A stretch of DNA of 64,000 bases from the IMG/VR virus record IMGVR_UViG_3300033153_013547, positions 62,001-126,000 of that record; one strand, 5' to 3'. Origin of the DNA: a virus. Below the pieces are notes generated by a model, which had not been told where the DNA came from, made no database searches, and saw only the letters and a program-made list of their open reading frames with translations. The translations under genes were made by a program, and so were the position numbers. Every line of letters begins with the position of its first letter. Position 1 is the first letter of the stretch. Shown here piece after piece: positions 10,316 to 30,280 of this stretch.

Positions 10316-10376
10316 GACACACTCCTCTGTTAGTTAAATAGTAACAGCAACTACTCTTCTGTCTGTGGCACCTCCT

Positions 10377-10772
10377 TCAGAAGTGGCAACCAAGTTCACC
10401 GATGGTAAACTTGTATTTGGGGTTTGTTTTGACGTAGAAGTCCCATATTTCGAGAGGGATGTCATCCAAGAAATTGTCAGTCATCCACTCTTCGAAATCT
10501 TCGCCGTAGTAGTTCTTGGGATCCAGGTACGGCAAAGTTTGCCTGACGAGAGCACGTGCCAGATGTCGCTCCAGTTTGTGCTGGATTATGGTGCCTTCTA
10601 TCTCATCATAGCAGTTCATAGGGTTGAACTCTACTATAGTGCTCCACCCCCCAACCGTGGCTTTCCACCAAGCCGTATATTTCTCAATGGACGACTGGTA
10701 GATAGTCACGAACAACAGTTCAAATAGCACACCACATATGGTGATGCTACCTGGCAACGATGTAAAATCCAT
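10377..10772 (-). CDS. hypothetical protein, 131 aa
   Basis: The start at 10772 (MDFTSLPGSITICG) has GGAG with the same GGAGTGTGTG spacer as its two neighbours. The frame stays open for 70 more codons upstream, but those come from an inserted GC-rich element and are not counted. The N-terminus is hydrophobic (ITICGVLFELLFVTIY), so it may be membrane-associated. The remainder is acidic and aromatic (DFEEWMTDNFLDDIPLEIWD). No family recognised. Confidence 0.68.
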   Translation of the reverse strand: MDFTSLPGSITICGVLFELLFVTIYQSSIEKYTAWWKATVGGWSTIVEFNPMNCYDEIEGTIIQHKLERHLARALVRQTLPYLDPKNYYGEDFEEWMTDNFLDDIPLEIWDFYVKTNPKYKFTIGELGCHF

Positions 10773-10803
10773 CACACACTCCATAGAATATAAATTTGGT
10801 TGA

Positions 10804-10955
10804 AACTCTCTCTCAACCGCCCCTACGGGGGCGTAGCGCCGCAGCAGGCGGGTCAAAGCCGAGCGCGACCGAGCTTGCCGAAGGTCGTGCGTAGTGCGAA
10901 GCAGTGCTTTGATGCGCCTGACCGGCGCGTATAATGAAAAAGTTGAGAGAGAGTT
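10804..10955. mobile_element. GC-rich 152-bp element with 14-bp terminal inverted repeats
   Basis: AACTCTCTCTCAAC at 10804-10817 and its exact complement at 10942-10955 bracket about 124 bp of strongly GC-rich DNA in an AT-rich neighbourhood. The interior contains smaller palindromes (CCCCTACGGGG near 10820). It lies just upstream of the 10377 gene and extends its reading frame. This looks like a miniature non-autonomous inserted element; no transposase and no target-site duplication are evident. Confidence 0.5.
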
Positions 10956-11050
10956 AGCAAACAGCGTACATGTTGTTAGCATTTTACATATTTATAGCTT
11001 ATTGATATAGTAGCCTTCGTTACTCTTTCTCTCCCCTATAAGAACGGAGT

Positions 11051-11083
11051 AAAAAAATACCTGCCCCCATTACAGGGGCAGGT
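11051..11083 (-). terminator. rho-independent terminator after the 11092 gene
   Basis: On the minus strand ACCTGCCCC pairs with GGGGCAGGT around a 7-nt loop and is followed by seven T. It begins nine bases past the stop of the 11092 gene, a textbook position. Confidence 0.85.
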
Positions 11084-11091
11084 TGGGATGG

Positions 11092-11445
11092 TTACTGTGT
11101 GATGACACGAGTTTCTTGGACTGTGTTGGCTTCGCAGGCTTTACGAAGCCTTTCCCCATCGTTCTGGGAAATGGTCTCGATCAACTTTGCCACTTTGGTA
11201 GCGGTCTTTTTGTCGACTGGAATCCACTTTCCGTTGTCGGGGCGACGAATTCGGATATCGAATCCGTCAGGACTTACAGTAACCATGATGCTGGTTTTGG
11301 AATCATTGGAATTGAGGAAGAAAAACCAGTTAACCTCCTTGTTCCCTGTCAAGCGGATGCCCCCGCTGTTGGCATTGAAATCTCCGACGGGGAACAACCC
11401 CTTTGGGCTGTTGTCGATGATTTCCACGTTTTTAAAGTAGCTCAT
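11092..11445 (-). CDS. hypothetical protein, 117 aa
   Basis: The ATG at 11445 follows GGAGTGTGCGTT. The protein is strand-rich (NWFFFLNSND, TSIMVTVSPDGFDIRI) with a C-terminal helix (KTATKVAKLIETISQND). The beta-then-helix layout resembles a single-stranded DNA or RNA binding fold, but no motif supports that. It has its own terminator. Function unknown. Confidence 0.72.
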   Translation of the reverse strand: MSYFKNVEIIDNSPKGLFPVGDFNANSGGIRLTGNKEVNWFFFLNSNDSKTSIMVTVSPDGFDIRIRRPDNGKWIPVDKKTATKVAKLIETISQNDGERLRKACEANTVQETRVITQ

Positions 11446-11476
11446 AACGCACACTCCTAAAAGTTTGTTTGTCACG

Positions 11477-11677
11477 CACATCCCGTGACATAGTCTTCAG
11501 GACGAACTGCGGCTTGGCCTAGCCCCGAGCGTTAGCGAGCCCAGGAGAAGAAATGGGAGAGGTCTGACTACCATTAAAATATAAAACATGTCAGACCTGA
11601 AGGGTTCCTATTTCTTCGGATGGGTGTAGGGCTAGGCCAAGGGAGAGCAGTTTGTCACAATGTATGTCACGGATGTG
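11477..11677. repeat. nested four-layer palindrome, about 200 bp
   Basis: Four inverted-repeat pairs are nested around one centre: 11477-11491/11664-11677 (CACATCCCGTGACAT, one extra base), 11513-11525/11629-11641 (CTTGGCCTAGCCC, perfect 13 bp), 11548-11554/11610-11616 (AAGAAAT) and 11561-11568/11590-11597 (GGTCTGAC). No gene fits. It could be a structured RNA, a cruciform or a replication or packaging site. Confidence 0.7.
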
Positions 11678-11682
11678 AGATC

Positions 11683-11744
11683 GTCTAAAGTTGCGCTAGT
11701 CTCCTTTCTTTTCAAATAAATAAGTGGCTAGCGCAACTTTAGAC
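11683..11744. repeat. perfect 17-bp inverted repeat, 28-nt loop
   Basis: GTCTAAAGTTGCGCTAG at 11683-11699 is exactly complementary to 11728-11744. The loop is pyrimidine- then A-rich. It immediately follows the nested palindrome, and together they fill most of the gap between the two minus-strand gene blocks. From 11745 to 12051 I see nothing convincing; a 63-codon plus-strand frame there has no binding site. Confidence 0.75.
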
Positions 11745-12051
11745 ACCTTATGGATGTCTTTTTGACTTAGAAAAGGCGGTCAGAAATAGAAGAACCTTTC
11801 TCTATCTCCCCCCACCTGGAGAATTGCAAAATTGTCAAAAAGCATCATTGTGTAAACTACAAGCAAGTAATGTGCTACTTATTCTTAGATTGTATCATAT
11901 TGTTCTTAGATTATGCCACATCCTGAACTCAAAGCAAAACAGGGGGCATAGACGTGTTGTATGTGCAGAAGGCGATGGTCTGCCGAAGGCAACACAATGT
12001 AATATTATCTATTAAAGTTGCCCTCAGCAGACCCATCAACATCAATCCAAG

Positions 12052-12222
12052 CTAATCACTTGGGAAAATGGGATACCGTGGATCATCCAGATCCTGGGGG
12101 GGGTCTTCCACTTCATAATGTGGACACCCATCACAATCTGGGCCTACGATATCCGTCAAGCCACACACCGACTCGTTGTCGGATAGGCTAAACCACAGAT
12201 GGACACAGGCCTCTTTTTCCAT
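12052..12222 (-). CDS. small acidic protein, 56 aa, last gene of the island
   Basis: The ATG follows GGAGGAAAGAG. The product starts MEKEACVHLWFSLSDNESVC, has a DCDGCPHYEVED segment with two closely spaced cysteines and a histidine, and ends in an acidic, proline-rich tail. The cysteines (CGL, CDGC) could bind metal. It has a leader-element copy upstream (12231-12321). Function unknown. Confidence 0.6.
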   Translation of the reverse strand: MEKEACVHLWFSLSDNESVCGLTDIVGPDCDGCPHYEVEDPPQDLDDPRYPIFPSD

Positions 12223-12230
12223 CTCTTTCC

Positions 12231-12321
12231 TCCTTCAAGAAAGAATCACTATGCATTCATCATGGCACAATGTAGCTTCATGGCCACCAGCTACTCGGCC
12301 AAGCAGTTTAGTCACGAGGAT
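12231..12321 (-). repeat. leader element, copy a
   Basis: Leader of the 12052 gene. Hairpin 1 (12272-12294) is GTAGCT/AGCTAC. Hairpin 2 is degenerate (ACTATG in place of GCCATG). Hairpin 3 is replaced by a TTCTTTCTTGAAGG segment. The upstream end carries the GATCCTCGTGACTAAA-type boundary that overlaps the stop of the preceding gene. Confidence 0.8.
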
Positions 12322-12631
12322 CTATAACCCCTTCGATTTCATAGTCATCAACCTCTTCGATTTCACGGTCATTATTATAATCATACGAAACTTCATCGAT
12401 CCCCACCCTGAAGAGTGGGGATCCTCCACCACACGCGTCGAGGAACGCCATCTTTACCTGATGGGGATTTTGCCAATCATCATCAGGTTCGATGATCTTA
12501 ACCCCCCGTGTACTTGCAACAATACGGCCACCGATCTCATCAATGGCAAGAAACGCAGGCTTGCCATCATCGGTAACCGACATGAATGCCCCATATGTTA
12601 AATTGAAGTAGTTGTTAAAAAACAGATTCAT
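12308..12631 (-). CDS. hypothetical protein, 107 aa
   Basis: AAGGAGGAAGAG directly precedes the ATG. The N-terminal part is beta-like with a glycine-rich core (FLAIDEIGGRIVASTRGVKI); the C-terminal 30 residues are very acidic and tyrosine-rich (DYNNDREIEEVDDYEIE). It ends in DPRD, as does the 12732 product, because the leader repeat overlaps the 3' end. No family recognised. A leader-element copy lies immediately upstream. Confidence 0.7.
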   Translation of the reverse strand: MNLFFNNYFNLTYGAFMSVTDDGKPAFLAIDEIGGRIVASTRGVKIIEPDDDWQNPHQVKMAFLDACGGGSPLFRVGIDEVSYDYNNDREIEEVDDYEIEGVIDPRD

Positions 12632-12634
12632 CTC

Positions 12635-12747
12635 TTCCTCCTTAGAAAGAAATCATCACACTTTCGTAGTGATCAAGTGATCGGATGATCACACGTAGCT
12701 TCATGGCCACCAGCTACTCGGCCACACAGCTTTAGTCACGAGGATCC
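12635..12747 (-). repeat. leader element, copy b (variant type)
   Basis: Leader of the 12308 gene. Hairpin 1 (12695-12717) is GTAGCT/AGCTAC. Hairpins 2 and 3 are replaced by GTGATC-ATCC-GATCAC and a CACT-ACGAA-AGTG stem. The same variant occurs at 17471-17577, so two leader types coexist. Confidence 0.8.
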
Positions 12748-12887
12748 AGATCCAACTCAGGATCCAGATCCAAGACATCAACATCAACCCCCCATCTGCA
12801 ATCTTGTTGATAAACAAGATCGCACTCTTCTCCCTCGGAAAGGAGGCAAGTTATGCCATCCTTCCCTAGGTATTTGCATTTTTTCAT
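12732..12887 (-). CDS. small cysteine-rich acidic protein, 51 aa
   Basis: The ATG at 12887 lies after GGGAGAAGAAAA. The first half holds four cysteines (MKKCKYLGKDGITCLL, EECDLVYQQDC) that could form a zinc knuckle; the second half is an aspartate-leucine repeat (DVDVLDLDPELDLDPRD). The longer open frame upstream is leader repeat, not coding. Function unknown. Confidence 0.6.
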   Translation of the reverse strand: MKKCKYLGKDGITCLLSEGEECDLVYQQDCRWGVDVDVLDLDPELDLDPRD

Positions 12888-12901
12888 TTTTCTTCTCCCT
12901 T

Positions 12902-12982
12902 GCCCCAAAGCACAACTCTTTGGGGCAAATCGCCATGCATTCATCATGGCACAATGCAGCCACAGTGCTAACGGCTGCTCAG
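12902..12982 (-). repeat. leader element, copy c
   Basis: Leader of the 12732 gene. Hairpin 3 (12903-12925) is CCCCAAAG/CTTTGGGG, hairpin 2 (12932-12950) is GCCATG/CATGGC, and hairpin 1 (12956-12978) is GCAGCC/GGCTGC, changed on both sides relative to copy a. Confidence 0.85.
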
Positions 12983-12990
12983 CTAAAATG

Positions 12991-13956
12991 TTAAACAGGC
13001 ACAATCGAGTCGCTTCCTGCCTGCAACCTGCGCCTGTTTCCCAACACGATCCCCTCTTTCGTGTTGGCGTAGCAGTAACTGCAAAGGTGTGGGCAGGTGT
13101 TATATTGCCCGATGTCTTTGCTGGCAGCGCATCCGCAGATGCGCCGCTGCCCTGAATCTTTCAGTCCGGCTGGAGTGCCGAAAAGTTTCAGCAGTGCCGG
13201 ATCATTATTTGAGATTCGGAGCAACAGCTCGTCATCGATACATTTGTTTGGCTCGATGCTTGGTTGCTGAAGATCGAGCGGCTCGGCGCAAGTCGCCAAT
13301 TTTAGCCCCCATTGCTGATTCAATCTTACCAAACCTGAAGCTGTCTCACGCATTAAAAATGGTGTGAAATCGAGCCATTTGACGCCCTTTGCCTTTAGGT
13401 TGTTTCGGACTTTACCATAAGCGTCCATATAACTGAAAACCAACTTTTCCGTATATGGATGCAATTGGTCGCCCACTCGTTTAACCTTTTCGAGAAGTCG
13501 CTCAACATTGAGCTCTTCTGTTAAGATTAGAGGATCGAAACGCCAAATCACTCTATGCTTGCCAAGACGGTTGGACAACTCTTGGAATGATTGAATGCGC
13601 GACTCCAGAGGCGGCACATTCGGTTCCAACGCGCCGCCATGGTCTGCGACATAGTCGTTGACCGTGAACTGGAAATAGTAGGCGACGCCTACTTGATCCA
13701 GCTTTTTAAGGTGTTTCATCAAGGGTTTTGGATTCTTACTCCAAAAAACGATGGCGCGCATACGCTCAAAGGAAACAAACTGGGATTTCCCATTAAAAGG
13801 ATTAACCCAGCGTGAATAGCCTTCTTCGAGTCGTCGCATAAACCAATCAGAATAAAAGGCTGGAATATCGGTAGATCGACTAGCCGATATAACTTCCGGC
13901 GCCACAGCCGTATGCACTCCACTGGATGTGGAGATTTCAGTTCTTTTCCACCTCAT
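12991..13956 (-). CDS. DUF1848 family protein, 321 aa
   Basis: Full-length match to the DUF1848 family pattern: an early VISASRSTDIPAFYSDWFM block, an IVFWSKNPKPLMKHL block, YYFQFTVNDY, and a C-terminal cysteine cluster (RRICGCAASKDIGQYNTCPH, then CSYCYAN) that in the family is thought to hold a metal or iron-sulfur centre. The biochemical role of the family is unsettled. It starts after GGGAGAGTAG. It sits in a minus-strand block of nucleotide- and ADP-ribose-related genes with a leader element upstream. Confidence 0.88.
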   Translation of the reverse strand: MRWKRTEISTSSGVHTAVAPEVISASRSTDIPAFYSDWFMRRLEEGYSRWVNPFNGKSQFVSFERMRAIVFWSKNPKPLMKHLKKLDQVGVAYYFQFTVNDYVADHGGALEPNVPPLESRIQSFQELSNRLGKHRVIWRFDPLILTEELNVERLLEKVKRVGDQLHPYTEKLVFSYMDAYGKVRNNLKAKGVKWLDFTPFLMRETASGLVRLNQQWGLKLATCAEPLDLQQPSIEPNKCIDDELLLRISNNDPALLKLFGTPAGLKDSGQRRICGCAASKDIGQYNTCPHLCSYCYANTKEGIVLGNRRRLQAGSDSIVPV

Positions 13957-13968
13957 CTACTCTCCCTA

Positions 13969-14048
13969 CCCCAAAGCACAACTCTTTGGGGCAAATCGCC
14001 ATGCATTCATCATGGCACAATGCAACTTCATTGCTATCAGTTGCTCAG
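13969..14048 (-). repeat. leader element, copy d
   Basis: Leader of the DUF1848 gene. Hairpins 3 (13969-13991) and 2 (13998-14016) match the consensus. Hairpin 1 (14022-14044) is GCAACT/AGTTGC, a second double compensatory change relative to GTAGCT/AGCTAC. Confidence 0.85.
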
Positions 14049-14057
14049 CTAATTAAT

Positions 14058-14582
14058 TCACCAATTCTGTTGAACAAACGCCACAATGGCGTCAAAGGTG
14101 TTTAGATCAACATCTTTGACGCCATTGTTGCCAATGATGGTCAACGGAATCCCCAGGCCAAGGGCAATCCTTATCCCCTGGCCTGTACCACCAAGGCCCC
14201 GTTTGTTAGACGGAGCAGCAATTACAGAATCACAACCAAAAATGATTCTGTAATTCCTTCCGTGCAACTTCCTTGCCCCCATAGACAAATATCCTGGGGC
14301 AGGATGATATTTGTCAACGGAAGCAAAGGCCGCCTGGTCGCTCATGGACAAAACATGAACGACCTTGCAAAGGCCCTGGATTTGAGAATTGTACGACGGC
14401 CACGGCACATGACCTTCAGTACTTATTCCCAAATTTCTGGCATGCTCGATGGCAACTTTGTCAATACCATCAGCGCAGCCAGAGACAACTACAGACCCTT
14501 TATCAAGAGATTCTACAATCTCTCTGACAATGCGGATCTGGGGACCAGAGGGGTCTCTGGTCCCTATCACAGCAATCTTCAT
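14058..14582 (-). CDS. SLOG-fold (LOG/DprA-like) nucleotide-binding protein
   Basis: 174 residues beginning MKIAVIGTRDPSG, then VVSGCADGIDKVAIEHARNL, the classic SLOG-superfamily pattern (DprA, LOG, DUF2493/YspA groups) in which these loops bind a nucleotide or NAD-like ligand. A conserved GLGGTGQGIRIAL stretch follows near residue 130. Such proteins occur widely in nucleotide-signalling defence and counter-defence loci. The start follows AAGGAGAAAAGGA. The ligand is unknown; a phage role in sensing or removing a host signal nucleotide is inference. Confidence 0.78.
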   Translation of the reverse strand: MKIAVIGTRDPSGPQIRIVREIVESLDKGSVVVSGCADGIDKVAIEHARNLGISTEGHVPWPSYNSQIQGLCKVVHVLSMSDQAAFASVDKYHPAPGYLSMGARKLHGRNYRIIFGCDSVIAAPSNKRGLGGTGQGIRIALGLGIPLTIIGNNGVKDVDLNTFDAIVAFVQQNW

Positions 14583-14589
14583 TCCTTTT

Positions 14590-14666
14590 CTCCTTCAAAA
14601 AAGAATCGCCATGCATTCATCATGGCACAATGTAGCTTCATGGCCATCAGCTACTCGGCCAGGCAG
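14590..14666 (-). repeat. leader element, copy e
   Basis: Leader of the SLOG gene. Hairpin 2 (14608-14626) is GCCATG/CATGGC and hairpin 1 (14632-14654) is GTAGCT/AGCTAC. Hairpin 3 is replaced by a TTCTTTTTTGAAGG-like segment, as in copy a. Confidence 0.82.
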
Positions 14667-14673
14667 ACAATTG

Positions 14674-14934
14674 TTAATGAACAATCACTCCATCTTTCAC
14701 CCTTCTTAGGGCAAAGATGAAGTCATCGCCTTGCATATAGACGATGACCTTTACATCCGAGGTGTCGAAACACTCTATACTGGTCTCGACAAATTTTAAG
14801 GGATCGTTAAGGTACGCATCAGCGTCATTAACATCCAGCACCCATGTGCCGGTTATCGGGAGCCTAAACGCCTCCCGAATGATAACATGTGATCCCGGAC
14901 TTGCCGGGATCGTGGGGTATATAATTCTCCTCAT
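14674..14934 (-). CDS. hypothetical protein, 86 aa
   Basis: The ATG at 14934 has GGAG with a six-base spacer; the ATG two codons earlier overlaps the binding site. The protein (MRRIIYPTIPASPGSHVIIR) has alternating strands and ends in a beta hairpin (VKVIVYMQGDDFIFALRRV). No family recognised. It is preceded by leader-element copy f. Confidence 0.65.
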   Translation of the reverse strand: MRRIIYPTIPASPGSHVIIREAFRLPITGTWVLDVNDADAYLNDPLKFVETSIECFDTSDVKVIVYMQGDDFIFALRRVKDGVIVH

Positions 14935-14948
14935 CCCCATCTCCTTTG

Positions 14949-15034
14949 CCCCAAAGCACAACTCTTTGGGGTAAAATCGCCATGTATTCATCATGGCACA
15001 ATGTAGCCTTATGACTATCGGCTGCTCAGTCAAG
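14949..15034 (-). repeat. leader element, copy f
   Basis: Leader of the 14674 gene. Hairpins 3 (14949-14971) and 2 (14979-14997) are intact. Hairpin 1 (15003-15025) is GCAGCC/GGCTAC, with one C-A mismatch, the only copy with an imperfect first stem. Confidence 0.82.
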
Positions 15035-15039
15035 AGAAC

Positions 15040-15423
15040 TTAGGCAGAATCTCTGATCTTCATCAGGATCCTGCCCAGATGGTTCAGTCCAACTCCGTTG
15101 CTTACGCCCCAGAATTGGTCTCCCCACCAATTCTCTTCAACGATCTCCCCCTTTATGGCCTGAAGTTTGGCCATAAAGACAGGATCGCTGAACTTTTTAC
15201 TTACCAGATCCTCCATGATCTGGAGTTTGACCTGATCCCAGTCAGGCCTAAGCCTAACTGTTTTGCCAATCTTTTTGGCAATAAACCCGTTGGTCACACC
15301 AACGAATCTTGCCTGATCAGCAGGATCAGTACACTTTGCCTTCTGGTACTCCACCTCCACACAGTACCCTAACGAATTAGGACACATGTTGGACAGAAAC
15401 CAGAAGATGCCCCTGAATCTCAT
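15040..15423 (-). CDS. NADAR-family protein (YbiA-like, DUF1768)
   Basis: 127 residues that follow the NADAR pattern end to end: FWFLSNMCPN near the start, VEYQKAK, AKKIGKTVRLRPDWDQVK, IVEENWWGDQFWGV and GLNHLGRILMKIR. NADAR enzymes cleave N-glycosidic bonds in ADP-ribose-type or riboflavin-intermediate substrates, and some remove ADP-ribose from guanine in DNA. The ATG at 15423 follows AAGGAGGTGATT. It lies directly downstream of the macrodomain gene with no leader element of its own, so the two form an operon. A counter-defence role against DNA ADP-ribosylation is likely but inferred. Confidence 0.88.
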   Translation of the reverse strand: MRFRGIFWFLSNMCPNSLGYCVEVEYQKAKCTDPADQARFVGVTNGFIAKKIGKTVRLRPDWDQVKLQIMEDLVSKKFSDPVFMAKLQAIKGEIVEENWWGDQFWGVSNGVGLNHLGRILMKIRDSA

Positions 15424-15433
15424 AATCACCTCC

Positions 15434-15847
15434 TTAGTGATATATCTCAACATTCAGATCAAGATCAGCCAGTTTATCAGACATCATCTGCCTAACCACT
15501 GGCCAATCCAGACCTCCAAGGCCACATCCAAGCCTGGGGAAGGCTATGGACCTAAAACTCCAGGTTTGGGTGGCAAAATCATCAAGACCATCAGAGATAT
15601 ACTCCAATTTGCTTGGATCTCTCCAATGATCCTTGGTGGGGAACAGTAGAACATTCTCCACCAAGATGACCTTGCCAGGCCTTAGAATGCCTGCAGAGCA
15701 TAGCCTGGCATACTCTGCAAACACCATGGGAAACCTTGCTTTGAACTCCAAGGCAAGACCCTTGCCCATCACGCCAACACAGTTGACGGGATTGACAAGA
15801 ACCTCACATTTGGAATCAAACAGATCCCCCCGCAGCAACAACAACAT
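15434..15847 (-). CDS. macrodomain protein, DarG/TARG1-like ADP-ribosyl hydrolase
   Basis: 137 residues. N19-PVNCVGVMGKGLALEFK and the later FPRLGCGLGGLDWPVV match the macrodomain branch containing DarG and TARG1, including the lysine in the MGKG loop used for catalysis (K29 here). These enzymes remove ADP-ribose from thymidine in DNA or from glutamate in proteins. The start at 15847 follows AAAGGAGGAGGAG; the in-frame extension upstream is leader repeat. Pairing with a NADAR gene suggests that both ADP-ribosylated thymine and guanine are targets. Confidence 0.88.
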   Translation of the reverse strand: MLLLLRGDLFDSKCEVLVNPVNCVGVMGKGLALEFKARFPMVFAEYARLCSAGILRPGKVILVENVLLFPTKDHWRDPSKLEYISDGLDDFATQTWSFRSIAFPRLGCGLGGLDWPVVRQMMSDKLADLDLNVEIYH

Positions 15848-15859
15848 CTCCTCCTCCTT

Positions 15860-15963
15860 TACCCCAAAGCACAACTCTTTGGGGTAAAATCGCCATGTAT
15901 TCATCATGGCACAATGTAGCTTCATGGCCACCAGCTACTCGGCCAAGCAGTTTAATCACGAGG
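15860..15963 (-). repeat. leader element, copy g
   Basis: Leader of the macrodomain-NADAR operon. All three hairpins are intact (15860-15882, 15890-15908, 15914-15936; stem 1 GTAGCT/AGCTAC), followed by AAAGGAGGAGGAG. In this copy the sequence can be read in frame into the gene. Confidence 0.88.
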
Positions 15964-16155
15964 ATATCTGATGACATCATTCATGGTATCATGGTCAATA
16001 TCAGCAGATATCGTCTTGATTGCTTCCAACTTGATGAAAGCGCACAGAAGTCCCCGCACTTCTTCGATTTCATCAAATAAAATCTTGCTCCGATGAAAGA
16101 GCAAGACTATCGTCACCACAAGGGCGGCGATAATAATCGACATTAATAACAACAT
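15952..16155 (-). CDS. small membrane protein, 67 aa
   Basis: Starts at 16155 after AAAGGAGGAGGAG (an ATG four codons in is an alternative). A single membrane helix (MSIIIAALVVTIVLLF) is followed by a 45-residue cytoplasmic-type tail with a helical ILFDEIEEVRGLLCAFIKL stretch. It ends YPRD where the leader repeat of the next gene begins. Function unknown. Confidence 0.65.
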   Translation of the reverse strand: MLLLMSIIIAALVVTIVLLFHRSKILFDEIEEVRGLLCAFIKLEAIKTISADIDHDTMNDVIRYPRD

Positions 16156-16169
16156 CTCCTCCTCCTTTA

Positions 16170-16260
16170 CCCCAAAGCACAACTCTTTGGAGCAAAATCG
16201 CCATGTATTCATCATGGCACAATGCAGCTTCATGGCCACCAGCTACTCGGCCAAGCAGTT
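16170..16260 (-). repeat. leader element, copy h
   Basis: Leader of the 15952 gene. Hairpin 3 (16170-16192) has one changed base in its 3' arm as read on the plus strand (CTTTGGAG), hairpin 2 (16200-16218) is intact, and hairpin 1 (16224-16246) is GTAGCT/AGCTGC with a U-G pair. Confidence 0.85.
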
Positions 16261-16561
16261 ACTTCTTCTGCTTTTCAACCCATTCCTTTATCACGTCTCC
16301 GTGACAAGGGCTGGGTTTGCAAAAGCAGACAAGGGTCTTCCCATCAAGTTCAAGCACCCTCCTCTTGAACTCGGGGTCAGACCCCAATCTGCTCAGGAAG
16401 TACTCCCTATACTTAGGTAGGGAGCTACCCCCTGAGCCGGGGAATGGATTCCCAAAATATCCATCCATTCCCCTACCAGCCCTTCCTATGTAAACATAGG
16501 AAGGGTCATCGCGCCACCCCTTAGGGGCGTCGCGAATATTAATAACGTTGATAGGCAACAA
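16259..16561 (-). CDS. DUF4326 family protein
   Basis: About 100 residues. VYIGRAGRGMDGYFGNPFPG and the C-terminal LVCFCKPSPCHGDVIKEWV are the two hallmark blocks of DUF4326, with C-x-C and C-H-G-D residues. The family is common in phages and is presumed to act on nucleotides or to bind metal; its activity is not firmly known to me. The best start is TTG at 16561, five bases after AAGGAGG; a GTG at 16594 has no binding site. No leader element of its own. Confidence 0.82.
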   Translation of the reverse strand: MLPINVINIRDAPKGWRDDPSYVYIGRAGRGMDGYFGNPFPGSGGSSLPKYREYFLSRLGSDPEFKRRVLELDGKTLVCFCKPSPCHGDVIKEWVEKQKK

Positions 16562-16629
16562 AATCACCTCCTTTTGTTGCCGGTCAATCGACACGGTTTC
16601 GGCAGACCACGTGTCATTCTGCAGACAAA

Positions 16630-17070
16630 TTACATGAAATCTCCCACAATCAGGTCACCCTTCTTGTGGGAGATTTTCTTCCCCCTTGGTCGGGGCGCAG
16701 GCACCTTCTTGGCGGGCACCTTCTTGGCAGGTGCCTTAACCTCTCTGGGCCACTTGCAATAATGCTTGACTGGCCCAGAGGCAGGCCGCTCTGCTGTTGC
16801 TGCCACCACTTCCACAGCAACAGCCTTTTTCACAGTAGGCCCAACCACATCATGGATGAGCCTACTGCAACACAGCTGCTTCCTGAGACGAAGTATTGCC
16901 TCGCCTCCGTCCACGCCTGTGGGGATCGTGCCCCTCCAACCGGGAACACGTTCCCCGTTGAGGTAGGCTTCACAGTACTGAAGCCCACCCCTTTCAAACA
17001 GGGGGGAGAATTTAATCTTTACCCTCTTCCCCCCCAACAAAATGTCAGGGGGACGAATCAAATTAGGCAC
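16630..17070 (-). CDS. hypothetical protein with basic AK-rich tail, 146 aa
   Basis: A GTG start (17070) follows AAGGAGTGTGTTACT. The first 65 residues form a compact domain (VKIKFSPLFERGGLQYCEAY, then ERVPGWRGTIPTG). The last 45 residues carry an alanine-lysine-proline repeat (APAKKVPAKKVPAPRPRG), typical of nucleic-acid-binding tails. No family recognised. It is not preceded by the leader element. Confidence 0.65.
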   Translation of the reverse strand: MPNLIRPPDILLGGKRVKIKFSPLFERGGLQYCEAYLNGERVPGWRGTIPTGVDGGEAILRLRKQLCCSRLIHDVVGPTVKKAVAVEVVAATAERPASGPVKHYCKWPREVKAPAKKVPAKKVPAPRPRGKKISHKKGDLIVGDFM

Positions 17071-17143
17071 AGTAACACACTCCTTTCTGCCAGGTATATC
17101 CTGGATCAGATGAGCAGTTTATTGTCTTGCTCAGGACACAATG

Positions 17144-17464
17144 TTATAAACCAAGTTCCTCCCTGACACGATCCCTATTGACGGGATAAATGTTTATCTC
17201 ATCTATCCCATCAATAGAAACCCTGAACAATTGCCAGGGGCCCCCATCTGCTGGGATGAACCAGTATAGAGGATTATACCCCTTGGCTTCCTCAAACTCC
17301 TTCGCTGCTCTTCCGAACAGCGAATTCTTCCGGGGATTTTGTTGCCAAACTTCTCCCCAAATCTGCCCTATTGGCTTGGCAGATTTGAGCATCACCCCAG
17401 AAATGGTGGCTCTTGGTGCGGAGCAGACCGCCTTACGCACCAAGGCAATAATTTTCTCTTCCAT
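17144..17464 (-). CDS. hypothetical protein, 106 aa
   Basis: AAGGAGGAAAA precedes the ATG. The N-terminus is helical (EEKIIALVRKAVCSAPRATI); the middle is basic (NPRKNSLFGRAAKEFEEAKG); the end is strand-rich with WFIPADGGPWQLFRV. No family recognised. It has the variant-type leader (copy i). Confidence 0.65.
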   Translation of the reverse strand: MEEKIIALVRKAVCSAPRATISGVMLKSAKPIGQIWGEVWQQNPRKNSLFGRAAKEFEEAKGYNPLYWFIPADGGPWQLFRVSIDGIDEINIYPVNRDRVREELGL

Positions 17465-17470
17465 TTTTCC

Positions 17471-17577
17471 TCCTTAGAAAGAAATCATCACACTTTCGTA
17501 GTGATCAAGTGATCGGATGATCACGCGTAGCTTCATGGCCATCAGCTACTCGGCCATACAGTTTAGTCACGAGGGTC
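17471..17577 (-). repeat. leader element, copy i (variant type)
   Basis: Leader of the 17144 gene and nearly identical to copy b, including the GTGATC-ATCC-GATCAC stem. Hairpin 1 (17527-17549) is GTAGCT/AGCTAC. Its outer end again carries CCCTCGTGACTAAAC, although here the upstream gene does not reach it. Confidence 0.8.
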
Positions 17578-17645
17578 CAGAATGTCACCATGGCTTGTTG
17601 TCAGCCAGAAATGGCTTTCAACCCATAGACCAATGCCCCAACTGA
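17560..17645 (-). pseudogene. possible leftover 3' gene tail ending ...LDPRD
   Basis: Between the stop of the 17646 gene and leader copy i, one frame remains open and ends GDILDPRD-stop, the same tail as the 12308 and 12732 products. It has no start of its own. It looks like the end of a former gene that was replaced by the present neighbour through recombination at the repeats. Confidence 0.35.
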
Positions 17646-18611
17646 CTAAATTCCCCGTGCCCAGAGAGCGTTCCGGCGCGCTTCTTTTTCGGCGCGCGCC
17701 TTTTCAACTCGTTCGCGAAGCTCCGGGGGAACATAGCCCGGCGTGTCGGGCGGTTCCGTAGCAGACACCGTAAATGTCTGCAGGAAAACGCTCGCGTACT
17801 CTTCCACCTGTTCGAGGGACAGCTCGACCCCCGAACGCAGCTCTTTGGGCAACTGGTAATCCAGATCAACTTCCACCACTCTCTCGGCGTGAACCGCGAT
17901 GTGTGGCGGGAGGCTGCCTTGCGTGGTATAAACGTCCTTCCCCATCACGTCATCCACTGCGGCATTCTCCACGACTGGCGTTCCCTTTGTCACCAGTCCT
18001 ATTTTCTCCAGATACGTCACGAACGCCGGATGGCGCGTGACGATGATGTTCCCATTTTCCATGGGAACAATATCCGACGCCCTGAGCAAATCTGACGCGA
18101 TGAAAGAGTACGCCTTGAGCTCACCGCTCGCGTACTCTTCCACCTGTTCAAGGGTCAGTTCGACCCCAGAACGCAGTTCATCGGGTAAATCGAGCGTGAG
18201 CTCGATTAACTTTTCTGAATACACCGCCAAGTGCAGGGGAATATACCCCTGCGTGGTGTAAACAGACCTTAAGGGACCGAGAGGTATCCCCGTCATGTCA
18301 TGACGGCTCCGCACATTCTTGAGCCACGTCACACGCCGTGCGCTGCCGAATGTGTGGATCTTCGCAAAATAACGCGCCACTGCGAGGTGGCGCGAAACGA
18401 CAAGATCTTTCGGCGGATAAATCTCCACTAGTCGGACAACGCGCGACTCGCCCTCCTCCAGGTAATTCCCGTAGGAATCCTGGACGGAACCCGAGGCTAT
18501 CGTCGTTCGATAGCCGTGCTCGATATCTATGGGGCCGCACCGGCGACCCTTGAAGTCCCTGATTTTCTCAAGCCTAGCCTCATTCCAGGCTTGAAACTCC
18601 TTCTCATTCAT
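17646..18611 (-). CDS. tandem Csx16-like two-domain protein, 321 aa
   Basis: Two homologous segments, about residues 68-180 and 199-298, each run from a V-V/I-S/T-RH start through LP-x-HLAV-x-(A/S)E and LRSGVEL(T/S)LEQVEEYAS. The second (IIVTRHPAFVTYLEKIGLV) matches the adjacent 94-residue Csx16-like product; the first has lost the HPA residues (VVSRHLAVARYFAKI). Csx16 proteins accompany type III CRISPR systems and have been linked to cyclic-oligoadenylate ring cleavage. An N-terminal segment (ARLEKIRDFKGRRCG) and a charged C-terminal helix are extra. Starts after AAGGAGAGATTGAT. A phage anti-CRISPR role is inference. Confidence 0.6.
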   Translation of the reverse strand: MNEKEFQAWNEARLEKIRDFKGRRCGPIDIEHGYRTTIASGSVQDSYGNYLEEGESRVVRLVEIYPPKDLVVSRHLAVARYFAKIHTFGSARRVTWLKNVRSRHDMTGIPLGPLRSVYTTQGYIPLHLAVYSEKLIELTLDLPDELRSGVELTLEQVEEYASGELKAYSFIASDLLRASDIVPMENGNIIVTRHPAFVTYLEKIGLVTKGTPVVENAAVDDVMGKDVYTTQGSLPPHIAVHAERVVEVDLDYQLPKELRSGVELSLEQVEEYASVFLQTFTVSATEPPDTPGYVPPELRERVEKARAEKEARRNALWARGI

Positions 18612-18668
18612 ATCAATCTCTCCTTGCCCTGCACTAGCCGCGGCAGGGCTTCGCGGTTGTGTGTTACC

Positions 18669-18953
18669 CTATGCAAACTGCACGATGTACGCCACGGGCG
18701 TGCTGGCGTATTCGCGCACTTGCTCAAGGGTCAGCTCGACCCCCCTCATCTCCGCCGGAATATCCAGCGGAACTTCGATCACTCGCCGCGCATGCACGGC
18801 GAGCCGAAGAGGAAGAACGCCGAAAACGTTCTTCCCCATTACATCGTCGACCGTGGCATGTGCCACGATGGGCGTGCCTTCCGGCACTAACCCTATCTCG
18901 ATCAAATACGTCACCAATGCTGGGTGACGCGTAACAACAATACTTTTATTCAT
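18669..18953 (-). CDS. Csx16-like protein, candidate ring nuclease, 94 aa
   Basis: Short protein with VVTRHPALVTYLIEIGLV at the N-terminus, IVAHATVDDVMGKNVFGVLP in the middle, then LRLAVHARRVIEVPLDIPAE and MRGVELTLEQVREYA. This follows the Csx16 (VVA1548) family order: RHPGA block, GxLPxxLA block, LP-x-E-x-RG-x-ELS block. Typical family length is about 100 residues. It starts after AAAGGAGAAGAG. The gene upstream in transcription order has the leader; downstream is the two-domain paralog, 57 bases away. Known biology of the family suggests degradation of cyclic oligoadenylate signals; not shown here. Confidence 0.65.
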   Translation of the reverse strand: MNKSIVVTRHPALVTYLIEIGLVPEGTPIVAHATVDDVMGKNVFGVLPLRLAVHARRVIEVPLDIPAEMRGVELTLEQVREYASTPVAYIVQFA

Positions 18954-18966
18954 CTCTTCTCCTTTA

Positions 18967-19047
18967 CCCCAAAGCACAACTCTTTGGGGCAAATCGCCAT
19001 GTATTCATCATGGCACAATGCAGCCACAGTGCTGTCGGCTACTCAGC
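18967..19047 (-). repeat. leader element, copy j
   Basis: Leader of the Csx16-like operon. Hairpins 3 (18967-18989) and 2 (18996-19014) are intact; hairpin 1 (19020-19042) is GTAGCC/GGCTGC with one U-G pair. Confidence 0.85.
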
Positions 19048-19048
19048 T

Positions 19049-19233
19049 GTGGGGGGCGATCCTGTTTCGATGTTGACAGGATCCATAAAAAAAGAGAGAG
19101 GCCCGAAGGCCCCTCTCCGATGATGCCTATATTTCTCCTTTCCCGGCATCAGGGAGTTTCACCACTATGCAGGTGACGCATACATTTTGTTTATCCAGAT
19201 GTAAACTGGAATCCGGTTTTGAAAGGGGAGGGG
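19049..19233 (-). repeat. 185-bp duplicated spacer, copy 1, with terminator
   Basis: Nearly identical to 19786-19970. On the minus strand it holds, in order: a CCAG/CTGG hairpin, a 7-bp stem TGATGCC/GGCATCA whose loop displays AAAGGAG, a strong terminator, and an 8-bp stem GATCCTGT/ACAGGATC. The second copy has TGATACC/GGTATCA, a paired change, so the stem is probably functional. It lies between the 19235 gene and leader copy j. Confidence 0.75.
19087..19119 (-). terminator. rho-independent terminator (UUCG loop)
   Basis: On the minus strand GAGAGGGGCC-TTCG-GGCCTCTCTC forms a 10-bp stem with one G-U pair, followed by seven T. It ends transcription of the 19235 gene. Confidence 0.85.
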
Positions 19234-19234
19234 G

Positions 19235-19690
19235 TTACTCTATTATTGGGAGGACATCCCCTTCTTCAAAGTCATACTGCCACGGATCATAATCCGTGGC
19301 AAGACCAATTGCTGTGACCATGTCTTTTGCGACGATCACAGCAAACCCCTGAAATTCCTCGCCCCCATCGTAGGGGACGAGGAACCCCCCGGGTTCCTTT
19401 TCTTCCGGACACTCCGGAAGGTTGGGGGCAAGTTTTCTTGCCCCCAACTGAAGGGTCCTCCAGACGGAGGTTTTTACTCCGTCTAGAAACCCTGACTCCC
19501 CACGTAAAATGGGGTAAAACACGCTAGTCGCTGCAGCGGCCAGCGTGCTCGCTCCTCCGGCTCTCATGAGCCGGAAGTACGAAATATTGCCGCTAACAGC
19601 AACTGGGCACCACGTCCTGTGGAGGGGCAGACACTGCCCATACCCCTCCACAGGGCGTAAAAAGACCGATAGCCAAAAAATTTTAGCCAT
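19235..19690 (-). CDS. hypothetical protein, paralog of the 19972 product, 151 aa
   Basis: Starts at 19690 (GGGAG, six-base spacer). It shares MAKIFWLSV at the N-terminus, YFRLMRAGGAS, SVFYPILRGE, LVPYDGGEEFQGFAVIVAK and a DYDPW...DF tail with the neighbour at 19972. About half of positions are conserved, so the duplication is not recent although the flanking DNA is nearly identical. A conserved DYD-x-W-x-x-DF near the end may be functional. Family not recognised. It has leader copy k upstream and a terminator downstream. Confidence 0.7.
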   Translation of the reverse strand: MAKIFWLSVFLRPVEGYGQCLPLHRTWCPVAVSGNISYFRLMRAGGASTLAAAATSVFYPILRGESGFLDGVKTSVWRTLQLGARKLAPNLPECPEEKEPGGFLVPYDGGEEFQGFAVIVAKDMVTAIGLATDYDPWQYDFEEGDVLPIIE

Positions 19691-19704
19691 TCCCATCTCC
19701 CTTA

Positions 19705-19786
19705 CCCCAAAGCACAACTCTTTGGGGTAAAATCGCCATGTATTCATCATGGCACAATGCAACCACAGTGCTAACGGCTGCTCAGC
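19705..19786 (-). repeat. leader element, copy k
   Basis: Leader of the 19235 gene. Hairpins 3 (19705-19727) and 2 (19735-19753) are intact; hairpin 1 (19759-19781) is GCAGCC/GGTTGC with one G-U pair. Confidence 0.85.
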
Positions 19787-19970
19787 TGTGGGGGGCGATC
19801 CTGTCTCGATGTTGACAGGATCCATAAAAAAAAGAGAGAGGCCCGAAGGCCTCTCTCCGGTGATACCTATATTTCTCCTTTCCCGGTATCAGGGAGTTTC
19901 ACCACTATGCAGGTGACGCATACATTTTGTTTATCCAGATGTAAAAACTGGAATCCGATTTTGAAAAGGG
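19786..19970 (-). repeat. 185-bp duplicated spacer, copy 2, with terminator
   Basis: Second copy of the spacer at 19049-19233, following the 19972 gene. Differences are mostly compensatory: TGATACC/GGTATCA in the middle stem, and a perfect A-U where copy 1 has G-U in the terminator stem. Confidence 0.75.
19826..19858 (-). terminator. rho-independent terminator (UUCG loop)
   Basis: On the minus strand GAGAGAGGCC-TTCG-GGCCTCTCTC is a perfect 10-bp stem followed by eight T. It ends transcription of the 19972 gene. Confidence 0.87.
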
Positions 19971-19971
19971 G

Positions 19972-20442
19972 TTACCCTATTATCGGGATAATATCCCGAT
20001 AATCCGTAGCAAAGTCGTCTCGCCACAGATCGTAATCTATGGCGAGATCAATCGCCGTGGTCGCATTTTTTGCGACTACGACGACAAACCCCTCGAATTC
20101 GCCCCCATCGTAGGGGACGAGCACTTTGCAGAATACCCCGGAACGTTCCGGGATATCGGGGGCAAGCAAAGCTACCCCCACCTGCATTGTTCTCCGGACA
20201 AATGTTACCCACTTGTCTAGAGAATTTACCTCGCTCAAGAGCCAATCCGCATTTGTTAAAATGGGATAAAATATACTAGCCACTATAGCGGTTAGTATAT
20301 CCGCTCCTCCGGCTCTCATGAGCCGGAAGTGCGAAACGCCGTCGCTTTCAGCGACGACGTTCCATGACTCATTATCGGGGGGGTTTTCTTTAAACCCCTC
20401 GATCTTGTCGAGTAAAACTGACAGCCAAAAGATCTTGGCCAT
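19972..20442 (-). CDS. hypothetical protein, paralog of the 19235 product, 156 aa
   Basis: Starts at 20442 after AAAGGAGGAGGAG. It carries the same blocks as its neighbour: AKIFWLSVLL, HFRLMRAGGADIL, SIFYPIL, LVPYDGGEFEGFVVVVAK and a DYDLWRDDF tail, ending IIPIIG. The shared blocks suggest a globular alpha/beta protein without membrane segments. Function unknown. It has leader copy l upstream and the same spacer-terminator unit downstream, so gene and control region were duplicated together. Confidence 0.72.
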   Translation of the reverse strand: MAKIFWLSVLLDKIEGFKENPPDNESWNVVAESDGVSHFRLMRAGGADILTAIVASIFYPILTNADWLLSEVNSLDKWVTFVRRTMQVGVALLAPDIPERSGVFCKVLVPYDGGEFEGFVVVVAKNATTAIDLAIDYDLWRDDFATDYRDIIPIIG

Positions 20443-20456
20443 CTCCTCCTCCTTTG

Positions 20457-20536
20457 CCCCAAAGCACAACTCTTTGGGGCAAATCGCCATGTATTCATCA
20501 TGGCACAATGCAACTTCATTGCTATCAGTTGCTCAG
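20457..20536 (-). repeat. leader element, copy l
   Basis: Leader of the 19972 gene. Hairpins 3 (20457-20479) and 2 (20486-20504) are intact; hairpin 1 (20510-20532) is GCAACT/AGTTGC as in copy d. Confidence 0.85.
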
Positions 20537-20628
20537 CGTCATATCGCAGATTTCCTAACCGGTGTCTGCCAACCGGCCACAGCCAAAATAGTGACTGTGG
20601 CCACCGCCTACGTTGCGGAGGCGGTGGT
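20537..20628 (-). promoter_or_regulatory. three consecutive GC-rich hairpins
   Basis: On the minus strand, after the 20629 gene, come CCACCGCCT/AGGCGGTGG (9 bp), GCCACAG/CTGTGGC (7 bp) and a CCGGT/ACCGG stem, then leader copy l. No T-tract follows, so they may be RNA-stability or processing structures between the first and second genes of the island. Confidence 0.5.
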
Positions 20629-20835
20629 TTAAAACCCCCGAGCCTCAAGGTCGAGGCATATGTCTTCGTATGCCTCGACCTTGAGCTCGTCAGCAAGGGA
20701 ATCTAAATAACTCCCTTGCTGAACGTTGAGGCGTTCTACCTTGCGGCAGAACGCCTCAACAAGCTCAAGGCGACGATAAGGATTCTTGCAATCCTTAATC
20801 GCCTCCTTGAGCTTAAACAACTCAAGAAATCTCAT
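20629..20835 (-). CDS. small helical protein, 68 aa, first gene of the island
   Basis: AAGGAGGTGTTT precedes the ATG at 20835. The product is a charged helical protein (FLELFKLKEAIKDCKNPYRR, then LVEAFCRKVERLNVQQ, then acidic VEAYEDICLDLEARG). It is nearest the divergent control region and is therefore probably the first gene transcribed. Function unknown. Confidence 0.68.
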   Translation of the reverse strand: MRFLELFKLKEAIKDCKNPYRRLELVEAFCRKVERLNVQQGSYLDSLADELKVEAYEDICLDLEARGF

Positions 20836-21342
20836 AAACACCTCCTTCAACGACATAGGGCATCTATTTATACCCCTCTTTGGCCCTATCACAGAATTGT
20901 GTCCATCTTCGACCAGATGGAAGAATTACTCCCTTAGGCCATATAGTTTGGGGGTGGGCATCATCTGATAACTCCACCCCTAAACTATCATTCTGGTCAG
21001 CCCCCCAAAATTCATCACAGAATTGCCTTATAAACAGACAAAAAAATTGCCTCATGAACAAACAACATTCTTCATAGCTAGCTAGATAAAAACTAACTTT
21101 CAGTCAGTCTTCCAAAATTCACAAATTTACTCCTTCATTGAATGATCCATATACTATAAAAACTTTTTCTCAAACAACTTCTCAAAAAATATATGCAGTA
21201 ATAATTCCCATGTAAGGGCTAAAATAAAATCTCTCTCTGGCCTCCAAAATAAAATAATTATTATCTAATAAGGTAGTATAGATGGGTAGATGGGTAGATA
21301 TCCTGCCTTATTTACTAAAATAGGATTTACTTTTAATTAATT
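20836..21342. promoter_or_regulatory. divergent control region between minus island and plus genes
   Basis: About 500 bp without a gene, AT-rich, lying between the start of the minus-strand island and the first plus-strand gene, so promoters for both must lie here. A 15-bp stem with one G-U pair (20943-20957/20974-20988, ATAGTTTGGGGGTGG) lies on the island side. ATCACAGAATTG occurs at about 20888 and 21013. I cannot fix promoter boxes with confidence. Confidence 0.5.
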
Positions 21343-26943: not shown

Positions 26944-27074
26944 CCAAACAAGAAGTGTTAGAAAAACTTCAAGATCTTATGGACAAATATGGGTGTGGCA
27001 TTCCTTATGGTGCAATAATAATTATTAGAAATATTATTGTAGAACTAAGTAAGGAATTGGGGGAGAAAGGCTAA
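26940..27074 (+). CDS. small protein, 44 aa, GTG start
   Basis: GTG at 26940 overlaps the stop of the membrane-protein gene and the TAA at 27072 overlaps the ATG of the acyltransferase. The product begins [20 protein letters not shown], with a short [11 protein letters not shown] segment. The tight overlaps on both sides support translation. Function unknown. Confidence 0.55.
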
Positions 27075-27604
27075 TGCCAGACATAAAAGAATATACAAGT
27101 ATTGATCCTAATGTAAAGTTTTTGGGTGCTGCTACTGTGCACTCTTTTACTAGTATAGATGGAGATGTAGTGATTGGAGACAATACCACAATATGGCAAT
27201 CTACAAATATTGCAGGCAAAGTTTCCGTAGGCTCAAATTGTGTAATTGGTTCTCAGTGCTCAATTCTGGGCACCAAGATGCCCACAATCATTGGCAAACA
27301 TGTTCGTATGCAGTCTCATTGTTTTATTCCTGATGGCACAGTAATTGGAGACAACACCTTTCTTGCCCCTGGGGTTACGATTTTGAACGATAAATATCCC
27401 CCATCATCCAGTCACAAAGATTGGAGTCCCGTAACAATCGAAAATGGGGCACGTATAGGCGGAGGAGTAGTCATTTTACCCGGCGTCACCATTGGCAAGG
27501 GTGCTCTGGTGGGGGCAGGTTCGGTTGTGACCAAGGACGTTATTCCCAACTCTGTGGTCAAAGGAAGCCCAGCAAGGATTTGGGTGATACCATCCCTTGA
27601 ATAA
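27074..27604 (+). CDS. hexapeptide-repeat acyltransferase (WbpD/WlbB-like)
   Basis: 176 residues with repeated hexapeptide turns ([65 protein letters not shown]), ending [19 protein letters not shown], the signature of left-handed beta-helix N-acetyltransferases. The VQSHCFIPD histidine region matches WbpD/WlbB enzymes that acetylate UDP-3-amino-sugar acids. The next two enzymes fit the same pathway. It overlaps the following gene by 8 bases. Confidence 0.85.
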
Positions 27605-28439
27605 TAAAACATTTGCCATATCTGGATTGGGTAGCATATCCCCACGTCATTTGGAAGCCGTGAAGCATATTGGGGGCATCATTCTTGACGTACATGATCC
27701 TGATTGGAGCAAATCATATTTTTATGGAAGGCAGGCAGTCTTTCACAAATCCATTGAAAGCATGCTTGAAAAATCAGAAGCAGAATGGTTTGTCATTTTG
27801 TCTCCCAGTAAATACCACTTTTCTCAATCTATGAAAGCCCTGGATCTGGGCAAGAAAGTTATAGTAGAAAAACCTGCTGCTATGACTCTATATGACGTTC
27901 TACAATATTCTGGACGAGAAATCTATACCGTATCACAACTACGATATCTCGACGACATTATCAACATCAAAAATAAAATATCTACAGGTCACCATGATGT
28001 AAACATCAAGATCATAGCACACAGGCATCCCATAACCATGGCAAACTGGAGACATGACATAAATTGGTCTGGTGGGCTAATGTATTTCGTAGGCATTCAT
28101 TACATAGACTTAGTCACTTGGTTGTTTGGCAAGATGGAAAAATTAGAACAAGTTACTTGGCTAAACAAACAAAAGTGCCAATTTAGTATGGAGTTAGAAA
28201 GAGCCACAGTCAATGCCAGCTTTGAAATTACTGAAACCCAACCAAACCACAAGAGCATGATCATAGATGATATAGAAATAGATTTGGCTGCCAAGTTTTA
28301 TGATTTACATTGTTATTTATATGAAGATATAATGGCAGGACATGGCATTCATCCAATGGATGTATATCATACTATGGAGATTATTCATAAGATTAATGGC
28401 TATGCCAATGAAGGATATGGCTACAATGCTTCTAAATAA
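27597..28439 (+). CDS. Gfo/Idh/MocA-type sugar-nucleotide dehydrogenase (WlbA/WbpB-like)
   Basis: 280 residues from a TTG start inside the preceding gene. Features: an N-terminal Rossmann turn ([20 protein letters not shown]), an [20 protein letters not shown] helix, then VIVEKPAA, the conserved EKP of the family, and [20 protein letters not shown], the catalytic H-x-x-D region. Orthologs oxidise the 3-position of UDP-GlcNAcA. It overlaps the convergent 2-epimerase gene by 19 bases at the 3' end. Confidence 0.82.
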
Positions 28440-29389: not shown

Positions 29390-29398
29390 TTGTGTCTC

Positions 29399-30280
29399 CT
29401 AAAACGTATCAAAAGTATCTGGATATACTTTATTGGGTAAGTTCTTTCTTATTCGCAACTGAGACCATTGCTTATCATAGTTGAGTAAAGAGACTTCTTT
29501 GCTTATTCTATCAACGGTCTGTGCCACATTGTCTCCACAATATACTTTTACATTATAATCCATTGTTTGGGAATCTATTTCTAGTGCCCAGTTCTGATCA
29601 CCCAACTTCCATCCACCCTGAGAATTGTCTACATCCCATAAAAAGGTACCAAGACTATAAGCAATAATACCATCTCTATATCTTTCAATGCCAGAAGGAA
29701 TGTGTGGGTGGGCTCCAGCAATAATATCTGCCCCCCAATCAATAATATCATGGGCCAATCTTTTTTGAGATGGTAATGGATAAGGTTCTCCCTCATATCC
29801 CCAGTGTAAGGACACAATGATGGTGTCACAAGACTTTCTAATTAGATTGATATCTCTTCTGATTTCTTGACGCTTGATGTCTCTTGCCCCCACTCCATCA
29901 AGATGACCAGAAGTTGTCATTGGCCAAACATGCCATGAATAGGCCAGTAAACCAACACCATTGGTAATATTATACGTCCCATCCCCAAACACACCAGTAT
30001 AACCCACTCCCCACTGATCAAGATATTTTTTAGTAATATCTACCCCCTCTTTGCCAAAATCATAAATATGATTATTAGCAAGCGATACTGTAGTGAGATT
30101 CATATTCTTTATGGGTTCTGGAGCAGACCGTATACCAAATCTCCATGACCATCTTGGTGTCGGGTGCAAGGTTGTTCCGCCAAGTGGTCCTTCTAAATTG
30201 GCAAAAACATAGTCAGATTCAGGTTGATAGGGAGATTCTTGTTTCCTGGAACAAATATCGCCTATTAATATAATTTTCAT
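29399..30280 (-). CDS. CapA-family metallophosphatase-like protein
   Basis: 293 residues matching the PGA_cap/CapA pattern: ILIGDICS near the start, YVFANLEGPL, TTVSLANNHIYDFGKEGVD, IIVSLHWGYEGE and IIAGAHPHIPSGIERY. These are the metal-binding blocks of calcineurin-like phosphoesterases. CapA proteins take part in capsule or polyglutamate synthesis. Starts after GGAGAAAACAAT. Its place in a glycan locus fits sugar modification. Confidence 0.85.
   Translation of the reverse strand: MKIILIGDICSRKQESPYQPESDYVFANLEGPLGGTTLHPTPRWSWRFGIRSAPEPIKNMNLTTVSLANNHIYDFGKEGVDITKKYLDQWGVGYTGVFGDGTYNITNGVGLLAYSWHVWPMTTSGHLDGVGARDIKRQEIRRDINLIRKSCDTIIVSLHWGYEGEPYPLPSQKRLAHDIIDWGADIIAGAHPHIPSGIERYRDGIIAYSLGTFLWDVDNSQGGWKLGDQNWALEIDSQTMDYNVKVYCGDNVAQTVDRISKEVSLLNYDKQWSQLRIRKNLPNKVYPDTFDTF

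Follow-up and report, generated by a model that had tools for sequence, protein, structure and literature searches.

A giant, uncultivated tailed phage (IMG/VR record IMGVR_UViG_3300033153_013547; 261,124 b) carries two adjacent genes of the Csx16 family, one encoding a single-domain protein of 94 amino acids and the other a 321-residue paralogue in which the domain is present twice. At about even odds (a probability of roughly 0.5), we propose that the pair forms a counter-defence unit against type III cyclic oligoadenylate (cOA) signalling, in which the single-domain protein would cut cA4 and the tandem protein would serve as a sponge or modulator. The window analysed here is a 64-kb stretch of this record, and its portal and prohead-protease genes resemble homologues from Bacillus and Moorella phages. 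Both ORFs, which a sequence-only reading of the same DNA had positioned correctly, lie on one strand with 57 nt between them, and each is preceded by a Shine-Dalgarno-like sequence. The hallmark genes bear out the phage setting assumed in that reading, so the pair is virus-encoded, as is required of an AcrIII protein. It does not lie in a type III CRISPR locus, since no cas family was found among the phage-island neighbours scanned. Overall, what the earlier reading had observed was partly confirmed, and its interpretation of a natural anti-CRISPR is partly supported. The features are collected in Table 1.

Table 1. Features of the Csx16 gene pair and its surroundings (window coordinates)
Feature	Position	Strand	Evidence
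Tandem two-domain Csx16 paralogue, 321 aa	17646..18611	-	two PF09652 stretches; two-domain profile; L055 orthologue
Tandem residues 1-65, N-terminal extension, no family match	18417..18611	-	
Tandem residues 66-172, N-terminal Csx16 domain; RH, GxxP and RGxEL kept; lacks His32; TTQ and S insertions	18096..18416	-	
Tandem residues 184-286, C-terminal Csx16 domain; TRHPA kept; His32 replaced by Asn; TTQ and S insertions	17754..18062	-	
Tandem residues 287-321, C-terminal tail with a long helix predicted at 296-318	17649..17753	-	AlphaFold model
Single-domain phage-type Csx16, 94 aa	18669..18953	-	PF09652 match; AlphaFold2; conserved residues
Copy of the repeated, structured 5' leader (three hairpins), directly before the single-domain Csx16 gene	18954..19055	-	
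DUF4326 protein	16259..16594	-	PF14216 59.6 bits
DarG-type macro domain alone, without the C-terminal part of DarG; preceded by a leader copy	15434..15844	-	PADLOC DarG E=6e-52; NF048014 E=6e-50
NADAR-domain protein encoded immediately downstream of the macro gene	15040..15420	-	PF08719 46.3 bits; NF053876 E=2e-11
DprA/SLOG-like protein behind a leader copy	14058..14582	-	PF02481 38.7 bits; PADLOC ShosA E=1.6e-10
DUF1848 protein behind a leader copy	12991..13956	-	PF08902 E=5e-92; PADLOC RTasDUF1848 E=1e-44

Membership of the 94-aa protein in the Csx16 family, proposed earlier from the order of its motifs, was upheld by a match to Pfam PF09652 (E=1e-14, 54.9 bits; curated cut-off 25 bits), and the PADLOC Csx16 models agree with this assignment. 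The profile named as a check in the sequence-only reading, TIGR02620 (an NCBIfam equivalog domain with a cut-off of 46.35 bits), gave 18.6 bits for this protein and no match for the tandem, which places the pair in the broad PF09652 family and outside the curated equivalog. The Csx16 proteins associated with CRISPR (PF09652, Cas_VVA1548; TIGR02620), which are ancillary ring nucleases of type III systems, belong to the same Pfam family and share with the phage protein the R-H, G-x-L-P and R-G-x-E-L blocks and the size of the single protein. The window pair differs from them in being phage-borne, in scoring below the TIGR02620 cut-off, in lying outside a cas operon and in that one of its genes encodes a fused pair of domains devoid of His32.

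Residues Arg9, His10, Gly45, Pro48, Arg70, Gly71 and Glu73 are near-invariant in 65 single-domain relatives, and all seven are present in the 94-aa protein. His32 occurs in 59 of the 65; since the other six lack it, this residue may not be catalytic. AlphaFold2 returned a confident alpha/beta domain (pLDDT 96.5, pTM 0.85) in which T8-R9-H10, His32 and G45-x-L-P48 each come right after predicted strands and a later loop contains R70-G71-x-E73, a modelled placement that would suit a Rossmann-like sheet with a single ligand face. The fold expected of Csx16 is CARF-like, with a five-stranded sheet, helices and a dimeric assembly; no solved Csx16 was found for comparison, and Foldseek searches of PDB and BFVD gave no match of significance, whether to solved structures or to viral ones. 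One cellular representative of Csx16 has been characterized as a cA4-specific ring nuclease that is inactive on cA6 (PMC12409355); hence, of the two substrates that the earlier reading had put forward, cA4 alone should be kept as the candidate.

The 321-aa protein matched PF09652 in two stretches (48.7 bits; same cut-off of 25), and a profile built from its relatives resolved two domains in the chain, at residues 65–174 (64.5 bits) and 184–287 (92.5 bits), confirming that the Csx16 domain is repeated. The claim that the first copy had lost its HPA residues was mistaken: the sequence reads SRHLA, so that Arg, His and Ala are kept and only the Pro is changed, to Leu, at a position that varies among intact relatives too. 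A description of the chain as one degenerate and one intact domain is too simple. Both domains lack His32 and share the same insertions (TTQ before the G-x-L-P loop and a Ser within R-G-x-E-L), which are absent from the single-domain proteins, and both keep Arg9-His10 as well as Gly45, Pro48, Arg70, Gly71 and Glu73. The AlphaFold model of the tandem (pTM 0.49 overall) is confident for the second domain only, and for the N-terminal extension the confidence is low outside a single helix. With two domains in one chain, the tandem may form an intramolecular pseudo-dimer.

A tandem of the same build was found on a bacterial MAG contig (L055; isolate AUK090), where it shares 71% identity with the window protein and adjoins a single-domain gene with 79% identity, in the opposite gene order. 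One domain of the L055 tandem lacks Pro48, Arg70 and Gly71, and the other lacks Gly45 and Glu73. Across the four known tandem domains, then, Arg9-His10 is always kept and His32 is never present. Over 15 core positions, these four domains depart at 3, 5, 6 and 7 positions, compared to an average of 0.5 and a maximum of 3 in the single-domain proteins. Having such an orthologous pair allows the residue losses to be tracked. Further whole-tandem orthologues were sought in viral contigs, phages and plasmids, and only an Allomeiothermus protein was recovered, as a weak match.

The L055 pair resides in an integrated prophage. A serine integrase beside the host miaA gene is followed by an HTH repressor, which the tandem gene adjoins in the early region, and then by ParB-methyltransferase, DnaC-like, replication initiation and SbcC-like genes; on the far side of the integrase lie housekeeping genes (names read from sequence). 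The same MAG carries a Cmr-type (III-B) CRISPR locus with a Cas10/Cmr2 protein (PF22335, Cmr2_N) that has the GGDD polymerase motif, although the presence of locus and prophage in one MAG may reflect a binning error. The only PF09652 matches in this MAG are the two prophage genes, and a search of it for Csx1, Csm6 and Card1 effectors found none. Among its relatives, one further genome of the 97 searched has a Csx16. As a separate observation, a NADAR gene and a PRTase-CE gene (L116:2496-4126) adjoin the type III-B locus of this MAG.

A tree was built from 69 domains; 55 viral-contig sequences were distinct and long enough to enter. The six domains of the window and L055 lineages fall into one clade (100/99), within which the N-terminal tandem domains pair with each other (100/100), on a long branch (1.49), and the C-terminal domains likewise (100/86). 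This pairing indicates a single duplication and fusion that preceded the split of the two lineages. Between the lineages, dN/dS is 0.20 for the single-domain gene and 0.30 for the tandem, the latter comprising 0.18 for the N-terminal extension, which is also the best-conserved part (81% identity), 0.33 for the first domain and 0.26 for the second. The tandem is maintained by purifying selection, yet is less constrained than the single-domain enzyme. A decaying pseudogene was ruled out by the intact frame in two lineages together with the dN/dS of 0.30. Third-position GC is 0.65 in both Csx16 genes as opposed to 0.30–0.33 in the portal, terminase and ribonucleotide-reductase-like genes, which points to their acquisition from a source of high GC, for which a prophage of the L055 type (GC 0.57) would be an example.

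The pair lies in an island (about 8000–20900) in which GC is about 0.41–0.52, compared to mostly 0.34–0.42 elsewhere, and in which all recognised genes are on the minus strand. NADARs and DarG macro domains undo the DNA ADP-ribosylation caused by DarT (PMC11125620, PMC11481870), and the presence of both types of gene gives the island the look of a counter-defence block. The NADAR protein and the adjoining truncated DarG-type macro domain are themselves two candidate DarT counter-enzymes. Also in the island, the ORFs at 19235-19687 and 19972-20440 (minus strand) encode paralogous proteins (AKIFWLSV... VPYDGGEF), each behind a copy of the leader described below, which had no notable match in Pfam, NCBIfam or PHROG.

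A leader of approximately 100 nt is repeated in ten copies between 12215 and 20545 on the minus strand, just before the start codons of island genes or gene pairs (for example, 15846-15950 and 20441-20545, in addition to the copy before the single-domain Csx16 gene). No separate leader precedes the tandem gene, which follows the single-domain gene directly. The leader has three hairpins, of which the third is absent from two copies. Compensatory changes are seen in helix 1, and over the three helices both sides have changed in four pairs; the covariation score of 0.199 compares to 0.127 in shuffles (none of 500 as high) and to at most 0.078 when slid. The leader had no relevant match in Rfam, and an exact search for its 23-nt core found it in no other viral contig. 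It is possibly a shared control element for translation or RNA processing.

In the counter-defence reading that we favour, the 94-aa protein would act as a homodimer that binds and cuts cA4, as suggested by the biochemistry of the family and by its intact conserved residues, and removal of cA4 during infection would silence type III effectors. The tandem would have arisen by duplication and fusion of a 94-aa-type enzyme, and its chain may fold as a single-chain pseudo-dimer that can be likened to SAVED. Since His32 is lost from both of its domains, the tandem would most likely bind the same ligand with little or no cleavage, as a sponge; or it may modulate, or pair with, the single-domain enzyme. 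More tentatively, and with some doubt, we suggest that a ring nuclease has here been turned into a single-chain cOA sponge, its gene having been duplicated in tandem and an active-site His lost, that enzyme and sponge are kept side by side behind one structured RNA leader, and that the CARF-to-SAVED step has thereby been repeated independently. SAVED is a fused CARF pair. Anti-CRISPR use of phage Csx16 is plausible from context, namely the viral relatives, the counter-defence neighbours and the orthologous prophage in a type III-B MAG.

The tandem might alternatively still be active as a ring nuclease, in the form of a covalent pseudo-dimer with a working composite site of Arg-His from both halves and a tighter dimer independent of ligand. 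In favour of this, both window domains retain Arg9-His10, Gly45, Pro48, Arg70, Gly71 and Glu73, and the gene is under purifying selection. We nevertheless regard it as rather unlikely, because His32 has been lost in four of four tandem domains and because the further losses in the L055 tandem are hard to reconcile with a conserved cleavage site. The N-terminal extension raises another reading of the tandem, as a regulator or sensor in which the 65-residue N-terminal part does the work and the pair of Csx16 domains forms a ligand-sensing module. This would account for the extension being the most conserved segment and for the prophage gene lying beside an HTH repressor in the early region, and the PADLOC CARF-HEPN-Csx16 model indicates that some multi-domain effectors include a Csx16 domain; set against an extension that matches no family and is poorly modelled, it seems to us very improbable.

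A broader alternative concerns the ligand. Phage-type Csx16 may act on another nucleotide signal, for example an NAD or ADP-ribose derivative, instead of cA4, which would make the island a block devoted to NAD/ADP-ribose conflict. The NADAR, DarG-like macro, DUF4326 and SLOG neighbours would agree with this, as would a Deinococcus plasmid (L006) on which the Csx16 region also holds a DUF4326 gene and a RES NAD+ phosphorylase, and the missed TIGR02620 cut-off implies that the curated CRISPR-associated group is only distantly related. However, the core residues match those of CRISPR-associated Csx16 (Allochromatium rows in the alignment), and counter-defence against DarT, as a separate task, accounts for the neighbours with no need for a common ligand. 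We consider a different signal improbable, and retain cA4 as the candidate ligand of the pair.

Precedents for the proposed mechanism exist in Csx15 sponges and in the SAVED-type AcrIII-2 (PMC13148439, PMC12751052). In the related family Csx15, some members are sponges with no enzymatic activity, and a Csx15 dimer can be superposed on a single SAVED monomer (PMC13148439). The likeness is that a ring-nuclease family includes members that bind cA4 without cleaving it; the difference is that Csx15 is another family and forms filaments of dimers, not a fused tandem. AcrIII-1 (Crn2) and AcrIII-2 (viral SAVED) are, like the proposed enzyme, small virus-encoded proteins that degrade cA4, in sequence families other than Csx16; AcrIII-2 is SAVED-based and catalytic, whereas the window tandem has eroded site residues. 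It should be noted that the native anti-CRISPR function of AcrIII-1 is disputed, according to work cited in PMC12751052. In the literature searched, no description was found of a conserved enzyme paired with an eroded tandem. The tandem offers a concrete example of a possible route from an enzyme that degrades a signal to a protein that binds it, and suggests how phages may build molecular "sponges" from enzymes.

Virus-borne Csx16 is already known, though it is rare in named phages: a published survey found it in two of 28,114 phage genomes (PMC12409355), presumably those of the Methanobacterium viruses Drs3 and PhiF3, which were matched by cellular-type Csx16 queries in our search of named phage records. 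These two likewise encode Csx16, but the 50,697 named phage records gave no match to the window protein or to a consensus-like relative. Scans of viral contigs with the single protein alone, or with all eight distant domains aligned, gave no match; closer sub-alignments of three to seven sequences worked, and identified 67 IMG/VR viral contigs with a Csx16 gene. Large genes near these include terminases, a portal, head-tail adaptors, DNA methyltransferases and PAPS reductases, and no cas family was among the top families listed for the neighbours. One phage-type alignment found six loci in genome_contigs (84,980 species); the ratio of viruses to cells is skewed toward viruses by design, since the search patterns derive from phage proteins. 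In viruses, phage-type Csx16 is much more frequent than previously reported, and its abundance in uncultivated viruses makes it likely to be a widespread form of type III counter-defence.

Several longer proteins were considered as additional tandems and set aside. Five phage Csx16 proteins (L028, L032, L016, L050 and L038) have no second domain, and in L093 (271 aa) the two profile stretches look like a single domain that an insertion has cut in two; L031 contains fragments of Csx16. A 671-aa protein of an Allomeiothermus silvanus plasmid (L007:4998-7013) does have two Csx16 copies in one chain, one intact and one degenerate, but it is much larger than the phage tandem, its second copy lacks R-H, and it gives no sign of a common origin with the tandem. 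Its gene adjoins an ankyrin-repeat gene. Elsewhere in the window, a first-sight reading of the translations suggested ribonucleotide-reductase-like and terminase-like ORFs at 41225-44446 and 53323-56220 (plus strand), each with a long intein-like insert, and acetyltransferase-, epimerase-, glycosyltransferase- and radical-SAM-like genes at 27074-40201 that have the look of a surface-glycan cluster.
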